Source: Candidatus Desantisbacteria bacterium CG1_02_49_89 (GTDB taxonomy: Bacteria; Desantisbacteria; UBA1551). Taken from it: a stretch of 24,288 bases of DNA. The stretch covers positions 1 through 24,288 of the forward strand of contig MNUP01000090.1 of NCBI GenBank assembly GCA_001871075.1, read 5' to 3'. Both the position numbers and the translations under genes were made by a program. The notes under the pieces were generated by a model that made no database searches, was not told the origin of the DNA, and saw only the letters and a program-made list of their open reading frames with translations. Below are positions 13,956 through 17,956 of the stretch, one piece after another (the stretch's first letter is position 1; every line of letters starts with the position of its first letter).

Positions 13956-14198
13956 TTAGCCTGCACTAACAGATAATTGTGCGGTTTTACCTGTAAGTTT
14001 ATCAGTTAAAACAAATTTACCACCCTTTATAATCTGGAGTTGTTCGTTTGCATTCAGCAGTTCAATACCACAGATTTTTCCATCAGAGGAGATGTCAACA
14101 TTTAATTCATCACTTATTTTGATGGTATCAACTTCACCAGATTTCTCCCTAAACTTGATGTACGCGATATTATACTTGGAGTCATAACTTACTTCCAT
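13956..14198 (-). CDS. DUF2283 family protein, copy 2
   Basis: An 80-residue protein beginning MEVSYDSKYNIAYIKFRE, with ISDELNVDISSDGKICGIELLNAN, the DUF2283 pattern. GGGGGTGAG lies just upstream of the ATG. It starts 11 bases after the stop of the intact DUF4258 gene, so the two form one unit. Suspected, not shown, to be the antitoxin-like half of a two-gene module. It is clearly related in layout to copy 1 at 4011-4229 but diverged in sequence, so the two are not recent duplicates. It is the second last member of the tgt transcription unit, if that runs on. Confidence 0.85.
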   Translation of the reverse strand: MEVSYDSKYNIAYIKFREKSGEVDTIKISDELNVDISSDGKICGIELLNANEQLQIIKGGKFVLTDKLTGKTAQLSVSAG

Positions 14199-14209
14199 AA
14201 TCTCACCCC

Positions 14210-14461
14210 CTAAAAGTATTTCACCAAAACCGTAATTGCAACCCAGTCTTTCCCTTCCTCAACGGCGAATACTTCTATCTGTTTTGTGTAGTATTTCTTC
14301 CCTCTCCACATTTCATCAAAAACAAAGTTGTGTCTAAATCCTGTCCGGCCAAATCTTGCTGGAAATTTCTCACCTACTTCTACTGTTTTTATTACTTCCT
14401 CTTCTTTTGCTCCACGTTCTTGCATTCGTTCTTTAGCATGAGGACGGATTTTTATAGTCAT
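14210..14461 (-). CDS. DUF4258 family protein, intact
   Basis: I start at 14461 (MTIKIRPHAKERMQERGA), with GGAAGG upstream; an earlier start eleven codons up has no support. The 83-residue protein has the DUF4258 pattern: His-Ala near the N terminus followed by RMQERGAKEEEVIKTV, then FRHNFVFDEMWRGKKYYTKQIEVFAVEE, then VAITVLVKYF. DUF4258 proteins are small, RelE-like or RNA-associated in some predictions, and often paired with DUF2283. It gives a direct comparison for the interrupted copy at 4213-4494. Confidence 0.85.
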   Translation of the reverse strand: MTIKIRPHAKERMQERGAKEEEVIKTVEVGEKFPARFGRTGFRHNFVFDEMWRGKKYYTKQIEVFAVEEGKDWVAITVLVKYF

Positions 14462-14500
14462 TGGATTCACCTTCCAAAGTTTTAAACTGGACACTGTATT

Positions 14501-16044
<1,544 letters not shown>

Positions 16045-16216
16045 TTATATTGATTTTTGCTCAAAATGCAAGTAAAAAAACTAATTTAACCACACGATTA
16101 CACACGATTTACACGAGATTGCCCTTGTTCCTGCTTTGACACTCTGATTCTATGACTCTTTGACTCTAAATTTAACCACAGAGGCACGGAGGCATAGAGT
16201 AATCTTTGGTTTTTAC

Positions 16217-16244
16217 AAATGACTAACAACTAATGACAAATGAC
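16217..16244. repeat. short tandem repeat array, AATGACAAATGACT word
   Basis: AAATGACTAAC, AACTAATGAC and AAATGACT in series. The same words recur next to the cpaF stop at 17920-17951. They resemble the short tandemly repeated repetitive sequences described in cyanobacteria. Confidence 0.75.
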
Positions 16245-16280
16245 TGCATTTTAACCACAGGTTAACACAGGTAAACACTG

Positions 16281-16377
16281 TTTGAGTAACTCAAACCTTC
16301 AGGTTTGATATCAGGGCTAAAGCCCTGAGTTATCCGCCCCGATGTTCATCGGGGCGAGACCTCGCCCCAAAGGGGCG
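16281..16377. repeat. cluster of hairpins downstream of the purF-like gene
   Basis: AAACCT-TC-AGGTTT (16293-16306), CAGGGCT-AA-AGCCCTG (16312-16327), CGCCCCGATG-TT-CATCGGGGCG (16335-16356) and CGCCCC-AAA-GGGGCG (16363-16377), with outer AACTCA/TGAGTT arms enclosing the first two. No T-tract follows on the minus strand. It may act as an mRNA 3' end or be a mosaic of mobile palindromes. Confidence 0.75.
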
Positions 16378-16399
16378 GGCAATTAAATTCCTTGTTTTT

Positions 16400-16431
16400 G
16401 ATTCATAATTCATAACTCATAATTCATAATT
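16400..16431. repeat. short tandem repeat array, ATTCATA words
   Basis: ATTCATAATTCATAACTCAT and further copies, 17 bases downstream of the purF-like stop. Same vocabulary as 9137-9169, 9209-9235 and 20544-20577. Confidence 0.8.
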
Positions 16432-16447
16432 GAATTTAAACCAGCCG

Positions 16448-17788
16448 CTATTTTTTGATGTATTTTCTCGCCACCGGGTAGATCCCGTTAAGGCATGCCA
16501 TGCATAAGCCTTTGTGCCCTATTGCCTGCTCGAGCATCGGGACCGTGGGGTAGCACACGCCGTCAGCTCCCAGCTTTTTGGCGACTTTCCTGCCTATTTT
16601 TTCAACAGGCATCTTGTACATACCGAAAGCCGCGTAGTTTGTGCCGCCCGGGTCCTTGAAACAGGGGAAACATAGCGGCGGGCAGGAAATTATGCAGTAA
16701 ACCTTTTCCGCCTTGCAAATCCTGAGCTTTTTGATGGTGCCATCCCGCACAACCGTGCCCCTGACTATGCTGTCGTCCCCTATGCCGACTCGCTTTCCGC
16801 GAACAACTTCTTTGTTGATGAAGAATTTCGCCCTCGCGGCTTTTTTCCTCTCTTCCGGATCTTCAACCTGGAAAGTCCTTTTCGCACCCGGGTTCTTAAT
16901 AACAGCTTCTTCGAAAGGCACGCCTGACCTTTGCGCGAAGCCCAGAGCCACTCCCCTGCCTGAATCAGGGGATGCGACTATCACATCGGTGTCTATTTTA
17001 TACTTGTCCGCGAGCATTTCTCCCAGCTTCTTACGGACGAAATAAACGTTTTTGCCCTCAATTACAGAAGTCGGGTCGGCAAAATACACCCATTCGAAGC
17101 AGCAGTGCATATGCGGTTCCTTCTTCATAATTCTCGATCTCATGCCCTTCTTGGAAATAACTATAACTTCACCGGGTTCTATGTCCCTCACAAGCCTTGC
17201 TCCGGCTCCGTAAAGGCCTTTTGACTCGGATGAAACCAGGAGCTGGCTGTCTATCCTGCCAAAACAGAAAGGCTTTATGCCCATGGGATCCCTCATTGCC
17301 ACAAGTTTCACTTCTCTTTTGTCCTTGACCAGGGCTGTTATGCAGTATGAGCCCTTGCCCGCAAGCTTGTTCATCAGGGTCTTTGACGCTTTGAAAATAT
17401 CTTTTTGCCTTTCAAGCGCCTCAAGAAAGATCTTTTTGGCGTAAACGTCGTGCTTTCCTTCAACACCCAGGAGAACGCCGTCCATCGCGAAAGCGATCTT
17501 GTACCTTCGGCCGGACGCTTCAGTGGGTTGAAGGCCTTCGGTGCTTTCGTAAAGCACGTGCCCTATGCCCGCGTAAGGCTCAACCGCGTCAAGAAGGCTC
17601 AGTTCGTCCTTGAAAAGGTAGTAAACAAGTTCGGTGCCGTCTTTTGTCAGCAGGTCATCCCCGTCCTTGGCTATGGATATCCCCGCCCCTGCTTCTCCCC
17701 TGTGCTGCAGCGCTGTCAGCCCATAAAAAAGCGCGTCCGCGATATTCCCGTTCTTCGCCGTTGAAAAAACCCCGAGGACTCCCGACAT
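16448..17788 (-). CDS. PurF-like protein with degenerate glutaminase domain
   Basis: Amidophosphoribosyltransferase homologue, 446 residues. The start is firm: AAGGAG six bases above ATG. PurF normally starts with a Cys nucleophile (CGVFGI); here it is MSGVLGVFS with Ser2 (codon TCG). GHVRYST reads GHVLYEST (Leu79 for the glutamine-binding Arg), HNGNL reads MDGVL (Asp103 for the oxyanion-hole Asn), and HRGQ reads HRGE. By contrast the PRPP loop GDDSIVRGT (337-345), PDSGRG (274-279) and the four Fe-S cysteines of Bacillus-type PurF (Cys230, Cys376, Cys429, Cys432) are kept. It is probably not a glutamine-using enzyme; ammonia use, a partner glutaminase, or a new role are possible. No other pur genes are nearby. 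Confidence 0.88.
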   Translation of the reverse strand: MSGVLGVFSTAKNGNIADALFYGLTALQHRGEAGAGISIAKDGDDLLTKDGTELVYYLFKDELSLLDAVEPYAGIGHVLYESTEGLQPTEASGRRYKIAFAMDGVLLGVEGKHDVYAKKIFLEALERQKDIFKASKTLMNKLAGKGSYCITALVKDKREVKLVAMRDPMGIKPFCFGRIDSQLLVSSESKGLYGAGARLVRDIEPGEVIVISKKGMRSRIMKKEPHMHCCFEWVYFADPTSVIEGKNVYFVRKKLGEMLADKYKIDTDVIVASPDSGRGVALGFAQRSGVPFEEAVIKNPGAKRTFQVEDPEERKKAARAKFFINKEVVRGKRVGIGDDSIVRGTVVRDGTIKKLRICKAEKVYCIISCPPLCFPCFKDPGGTNYAAFGMYKMPVEKIGRKVAKKLGADGVCYPTVPMLEQAIGHKGLCMACLNGIYPVARKYIKK

Positions 17789-17814
17789 TGGTTGCTCCTT
17801 CCCTCTTCTTTGAA

Positions 17815-17828
17815 GGTAAATGTTTACC
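17815..17828. promoter_or_regulatory. candidate operator upstream of the purF-like gene
   Basis: GGTAAA-TG-TTTACC inverted repeat, 27 bases upstream of the start codon. The form (TAAAC/GTTTA about a two-base centre) recalls LacI/PurR-type operators, but the match is loose and no regulator gene is in the window. Confidence 0.25.
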
Positions 17829-17919
17829 GACTTTTTTATCTGAACAATTTTTTATTTGAACGATATTCATCTTGAAACAGTTATTAATTGTCTAAAGTCT
17901 GTTTTTAATTCAAGTTTTT

Positions 17920-17951
17920 AACTAATGACCAATGACTAATGACAAATGACT
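17920..17951. repeat. short tandem repeat array, AATGAC words
   Basis: ACTAATGACC, AATGACTAATGAC and AAATGAC in series, ending 6 bases from the cpaF stop codon. Confidence 0.8.
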
Positions 17952-17956
17952 GTTTT

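Follow-up and report, generated by a model that had tools for sequence, protein, structure and literature searches.

Brown et al. 2011 (PMC3261824) described archaeal paralogues of PurF that lack the N-terminal catalytic cysteine and named them PurF'; the crenarchaeal ones are proposed to use free ammonia. The same study cites the finding that the C1S and C1A forms of E. coli PurF lose activity with glutamine and retain activity with ammonia. It also describes Mlab_0150 of Methanocorpusculum labreanum, a PurF duplicate that lies beside the canonical PurF, carries serine in place of the cysteine and arose by recent local duplication. Y74 and I335 of PurF form part of the ammonia channel wall and are involved in interdomain signalling (PMC7953260). 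Besides Brown et al., literature searches on Cys-less PurF yielded nothing relevant.

The window analysed here is a stretch of 24,288 nucleotides from Candidatus Desantisbacteria bacterium CG1_02_49_89 (contig MNUP01000090.1). It contains an ORF of 446 residues, designated P0001, whose product begins with MSGVLG. P0001 shares the predicted whole-length fold, the PRPP loop, the basic residues of the flexible loop and four Fe-S cysteines with the Fe-S PurFs of the B. subtilis type (EC 2.4.2.14, TIGR01134). Unlike these proteins, to which it is about 30-38% identical, P0001 lacks Cys1, Arg73, Asn101 and Asp127 and has altered channel and acceptor residues. It resembles Mlab_0150 in having serine for the nucleophile, but belongs to a clade with a long stem, whereas Mlab_0150 is a recent purF duplicate. 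Since Cys-less paralogues as such are already known from Brown et al. 2011, the P0001 clade is a variant of the PurF' kind; it differs from the described PurF' in residues, hosts and genomic context.

The P0001 gene and its surroundings

The TIGR01134 (purF) model matches P0001 over its full length, with a score below the curated cut-off of 350 bits (Table 1). The GC content of the gene is 0.515, and both GC content and codon usage agree with those of the neighbouring genes. The gene is flanked by tad/Flp pilus genes (TadA-type ATPase, secretin and CpaB) on one side and by tgt on the other, with intergenic gaps of about 170 and 460 nucleotides. Isolated between the pilus cluster and tgt, it receives no hint to its function from its neighbours. 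Short, nearly identical repeats, among them 'tcatttgtcattagtcattggtcattag' and 'aattatgaattatgagttatgaatta', lie in the intergenic sequences (15991-16447 and 17789-17956). An Rfam scan of the window returned two tRNAs and nothing else, which speaks against control of the gene by a riboswitch or other RNA. Elsewhere in the window, two small ORFs lie next to each other on the minus strand (13956-14494) and presumably resemble a DUF2283/DUF4258 pair.

Table 1. Features of the P0001 locus, in window coordinates.
Feature	Position	Strand	Basis
PurF-like paralogue with substituted glutaminase site	16448..17788	-	TIGR01134 254.9 bits; AF2 pLDDT 94.7
AAGGAG, Shine-Dalgarno-like, 6-nt spacer to ATG	17795..17800	-	read directly
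Ser2 replacing nucleophile Cys1	17783..17785	-	S in 8/8 clade, C in 44/44 canonical
H29-R-G-E32 (canonical HRGQ)	17693..17704	-	HRGE also in canonical PurFs
L79-Y80-E81 replacing R73-Y74-S; start of shortened glutamine loop	17546..17554	-	L, Y and E each 8/8
M102-D103-G104 replacing H100-N101-G102 (oxyanion Asn)	17477..17485	-	M 8/8, D 8/8
Fe-S cysteine C229	17102..17104	-	aligned to canonical Cys
F236-A-D-P239 replacing canonical F-A/S-R-P (R261->D)	17072..17083	-	D 7/8, S 1/8
PRPP flexible loop K298-K321; K326, R332, T333, F334, R342, K349 retained; I335->Q, P337->E	16826..16897	-	
PRPP motif GDDSIVRGT (337-345), followed by T374->V346	16754..16780	-	residue alignment
Rebuilt hood segment 369-390; canonical YGID->KDP, deletion of ~3 residues; L415->aromatic	16619..16684	-	K, D and F/Y each 8/8
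Fe-S cysteine C376	16661..16663	-	aligned to canonical Cys
Fe-S cysteines C429 and C432 (CMAC)	16493..16504	-	aligned to canonical Cys

Substitutions in the glutaminase domain

Canonical positions are numbered as in E. coli PurF, whose sequence was matched at the positions named in PMC7953260 only. The columns compared comprise the eight proteins of the P0001 clade, 44 canonical PurFs and 13 crenarchaeal PurF'; for the HRGE motif, 54 Cys-bearing PurFs were used. Ser2 of P0001 is aligned with Cys1 because the AAGGAG and ATG mark a clear start and no cysteine precedes the ATG in the open frame. The other replacements are L79 for R73, M102 for H100 and D103 for N101. D127 is absent, Y74 is retained and the glutamine loop is about five residues shorter than in canonical PurFs. 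The serine, leucine and aspartate at the Cys1, Arg73 and Asn101 sites are present in all eight clade proteins. In addition, 22 residues of the N-domain are near-invariant and specific to the clade. The catalytic cysteine, Arg73, Asn101 and a TIGR01134 score of at least 350, which are among the marks of the glutamine-dependent PurFs (EC 2.4.2.14), are all missing from P0001.

The original prediction held that the N-terminal domain no longer hydrolyses glutamine. This predicted loss is strongly supported by the clade-wide replacement of four defining residues and by the lack of glutamine activity in E. coli C1S (PMC3261824). The firm start and the Ser2, Leu79 and Asp103 substitutions on which the prediction drew are borne out by the alignment, the AAGGAG and seven homologues. 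It had also counted HRGE as evidence of a dead glutaminase. The glutamate is indeed present, but 5 of the 54 Cys-bearing PurFs carry it as well; the change from Gln to Glu is therefore no sign of a dead glutaminase.

The PRPP site, the acceptor side and the Fe-S cysteines

The second half of P0001 is conserved at the predicted PRPP site. K326, R332, T333, F334, R342, K349, D366, D367, S368, R371 and G372 are kept by 8/8 clade proteins, although the invariance of one stretch of the PRPP loop (K298-F306 of P0001) is partly built in, since it lay in the pattern that found six of the orthologues; the other columns are unaffected. The four Fe-S cysteines align with cysteines of all 44 canonical PurFs and are predicted ligands of a [4Fe-4S] cluster of the B. 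subtilis type. The GDDSIVRGT motif and these cysteines are thus intact, as originally noted.

The acceptor and channel side, on the other hand, is rebuilt. I335 is replaced by Gln, P337 by Glu and T374 by Val throughout the clade, and R261 by Asp in seven of the eight proteins. In the hood, Lys is found for D408, Asp for M409 and Phe or Tyr for L415 (8/8 each), compared with D408 and L415 in 44/44 canonical PurFs; the equivalences of D408 and L415 depend on the alignment, which contains a gap of about three residues here. From the replacements on this side, we infer that the acceptor, besides the nitrogen donor, has changed in the clade.

Predicted structure

An AF2 model of P0001, computed from an alignment of 56 rows, has a pLDDT of 94.7 and a pTM of 0.92; an earlier model from seven sequences only reached a pLDDT of 67.7. 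The nearest solved structures are PurFs, with Z scores of 41-44. The model superimposes on 1ao0 with a Z score of 43.8 and an rmsd of 2.2 over 408 residues, a match that is partly expected because canonical PurFs were included in the AF2 alignment. P0001 is thus predicted with high confidence to adopt the two-domain PurF fold. GlmS and beta-lactam synthetase are further matches of the N-domain of the model; in beta-lactam synthetase, the class-II glutaminase-like domain does not work as a glutaminase.

A rare clade under purifying selection

Relatives of P0001 were sought with a degenerate DNA pattern for KNPGx(K/R)RTF, which was run against 84,980 genomes, and by profile searches. The pattern scan found six orthologues: L079, L104 and L074 in Ca. 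Aenigmatarchaeota, L067 and L069 in Ca. Pacearchaeota, and L130 in CSMAG_44. Their phmmer scores are 440-524 bits, against 211-214 bits for the canonical PurF of the window genome. A seventh relative, L189 in genome G510, came from a profile search. A search of genome contigs with the P0001 sequence itself returned no relative, and 386 genomes across the bacterial domain contained nothing nearer than canonical PurFs and no bacterial orthologue. All seven relatives come from small DPANN-type archaeal MAGs. One of these, CSMAG_44 (G388), is labelled only 'bacterium' and is probably a DPANN archaeon, because the genomes drawn as its relatives include the two Pacearchaeota hosts. The clade is rare: the phylum of host G386 has it in 4 of 156 genomes, and the phylum of G390 in 2 of the 371 genomes sampled. 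Its members are 49-55% identical to P0001.

The eight proteins form one clade in the tree (SH-aLRT 100), so that the Ser/Leu/Asp set is a clade marker, as had been envisaged. The clade is separate from crenarchaeal PurF' (SH-aLRT 100), from a Cys-less bacterial family with the motif HSHLGT and from all canonical PurFs, and its stem is long, at 1.06 changes per site. AU tests of a shared origin of the Cys-less lineages gave p values of 0.386, for union with crenarchaeal PurF', and 0.55, so that a common origin is not rejected.

Within the clade, mean identity is 56% in the N-domain and 64% in the phosphoribosyltransferase domain; the corresponding values for canonical bacterial PurFs are 52% and 54%. 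For two archaeal pairs with dS of 1.1-1.6, the remaining pairs being saturated, the N-domain has a dN/dS of 0.14-0.20 and the phosphoribosyltransferase domain one of 0.12-0.13. The N-domain is therefore under purifying selection and maintained. Together with the clade-wide Ser/Leu/Asp set, this indicates a conserved redesign and not decay or sequencing error. The description of the glutaminase site as 'dismantled' in the original prediction is accordingly misleading, as the substituted residues do not vary within the clade and are maintained by purifying selection.

Three other origins were considered. A sequencing error, which the original prediction had named as the alternative, or a wrong start is ruled out by the clear Shine-Dalgarno sequence and start and by the serine common to the seven homologues. 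A decaying pseudogene is ruled out by dN/dS and by the host-like GC content and codon usage. A phage origin is argued against by viral contigs, which gave canonical-type PurFs only, with cysteine at both readable N-termini. In L223 and L224 from IMG/VR contigs, Cys, Arg and Asn are intact.

Comparison with other Cys-less families

Crenarchaeal PurF' resembles P0001 in lacking the N-terminal cysteine and keeping the PRPP domain, and 8 of its 13 members have Asp at position 101. In contrast to P0001, it retains R261, T374 and L415 in 13/13 and has Ile or Leu at 335. In the genomes found here, its genes directly follow purF, unlike the P0001 gene.

The HSHLGT family shares with P0001 an MSG or MGG start, the absence of Arg73, and the retained PRPP loop and Fe-S cysteines; some members also have the one-residue insertion of P0001 after the PRPP loop. 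It differs in having HLG for HRG, a deleted Arg-Tyr segment, Gln for T374 and a conserved L415. P0001 carries QHRGE and GHVLYE, and thus neither the HxHLGT motif nor the Arg-Tyr deletion. Among 372 bacterial genomes sampled, about 22 encode the family (L142-L163, in G007, G036, G040, G058, G088, G114, G145 and others), often together with a canonical PurF at another locus. Two members were scanned against NCBIfam, and neither had a dedicated model. Its neighbours in the tree, L167 (G125) and L170 (G262), keep the N-terminal cysteine and lack the Arg73 segment and Asn101.

Hosts and purine genes

The window genome (2.48 Mb, 93.5% complete) encodes a single further PurF homologue, on a separate contig (C76:7934-9265). 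It is the second, canonical PurF that the original prediction had proposed to look for: Cys, Arg and Asn are intact, it is 37% identical to P0001, and its gene adjoins pyrG. PurD and PurM are also encoded. The one other genome examined from the phylum of the window (G001) has a canonical PurF only and no copy of the P0001 type; PurD and PurM were not found over cut-off in it, which may reflect incompleteness (87% complete).

Six archaeal hosts (G386-G391) were examined. They are MAGs of 0.5-1.0 Mb that may be incomplete, so that each gene absence is soft when taken singly. Canonical PurF, PurD and PurM are over cut-off in G386 only. In the other five hosts none of the three was detected over cut-off, weak partial PurF matches being other proteins; that the same three genes are missing from five genomes alike is suggestive.

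The clade gene of G386 adjoins Kae1 and is clustered with purN, folD, purD, canonical purF and guaA; this clustering is the chief argument for a link to purines. The clade gene also lies near Kae1 in G387 and G389, and follows orc1 and the small and large polD genes in G390 and G391. No neighbour gene is common to all hosts in the stretches read, and purF or other purine genes are found beside the clade gene in G386 only, being absent from the window and from the stretches read in G387-G391. Because orientation and partners differ, the archaeal neighbours were not used to assign a function.

Possible functions

The residues and hosts point to a PRPP-using PurF paralogue that receives no ammonia from glutamine and acts outside purine synthesis in most hosts, a reading to which we give even chances. 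The N-terminal Ntn-fold domain would serve as a structural or ligand-binding lid, and the C-terminal type-I phosphoribosyltransferase domain would still bind Mg-PRPP. An acceptor other than channelled ammonia, such as a small amine, a nucleobase-like molecule, phosphate or water, would attack C1; with such an acceptor, the protein would have no part in de novo purine synthesis in the majority of hosts. A job different from purine synthesis is probable because the rebuilt protein occurs in tiny archaea without detected purine-pathway genes. Against this reading, the protein could bind PRPP through the conserved residues without converting it, the gene of G386 lies in a purine cluster, and the window host makes purines too. 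A more specific form, somewhat less likely than not, is a PurF-derived phosphoribosyltransferase whose acceptor and product are both new, at work in DPANN archaea unable to make purines and in one bacterial lineage, in which the former glutaminase domain would bind the new ligand. Of the outcomes that the original prediction offered, use of PRPP for a different product fits best, as a candidate judged from residues and gene content.

The protein might instead be an ammonia-dependent PRPP aminotransferase that, as crenarchaeal PurF' is proposed to do, combines PRPP with free ammonia to give phosphoribosylamine (PRA) for purines or another PRA route. The intact PRPP residues, the ammonia activity left in E. 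coli C1S and C1A (PMC3261824) and the clustering of the G386 gene with purF, purD, folD and purN are consistent with this. Yet R261, T374, L415 and I335, kept by crenarchaeal PurF' (I335 as Ile or Leu), are replaced in the clade, PurD, the user of PRA, and PurM are undetected in five of the six archaeal hosts, and both PurD-bearing hosts have a canonical PurF as well. Ammonia-dependent PRA synthesis, also raised in the original prediction, is weakened by these data and appears rather unlikely.

A non-catalytic sensor of PRPP or nucleotides, or a regulatory subunit, would report the PRPP level or control a partner protein. Both domains are conserved despite the loss of the glutaminase, the window genome and G386 have a second PurF, and duplicated enzymes commonly end as regulatory pseudoenzymes. 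However, five of the six archaeal hosts have no detectable canonical PurF to regulate, the hosts do not have a neighbour gene in common, and the catalytic PRPP-loop residues, D366 and D367 included, are all kept; a sensor is therefore unlikely.

Serine acts as a nucleophile in other Ntn hydrolases, and Ser2, invariant in the clade (8/8) and N-terminal once Met is removed, could act on another amide or ester and pass the released group to PRPP, with E32, E81, E90, D103, K112 and D114 as new near-invariant N-domain residues. This is very improbable, given Asp for the oxyanion Asn101 in 8/8, the replaced channel residues and the failure of Ser to substitute functionally for Cys in E. coli PurF (PMC3261824).

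Significance

The P0001 clade, read as PRPP-using paralogues, appears to have exchanged both the nitrogen-donor site and the acceptor pocket. Automatic annotation of such proteins as 'amidophosphoribosyltransferase' can mislead. The P0001 clade, crenarchaeal PurF' and the HSHLGT family are three lineages with differing acceptor-side residues, and form a test set for the role of Cys-less PurF'. The syntheses of purines, pyrimidines, histidine, tryptophan and NAD all branch off at PRPP. That a PurF relative of PRPP-binding type is conserved in genomes of 0.5-1.0 Mb in which no purine synthesis was detected suggests that PRPP has a use not yet assigned.
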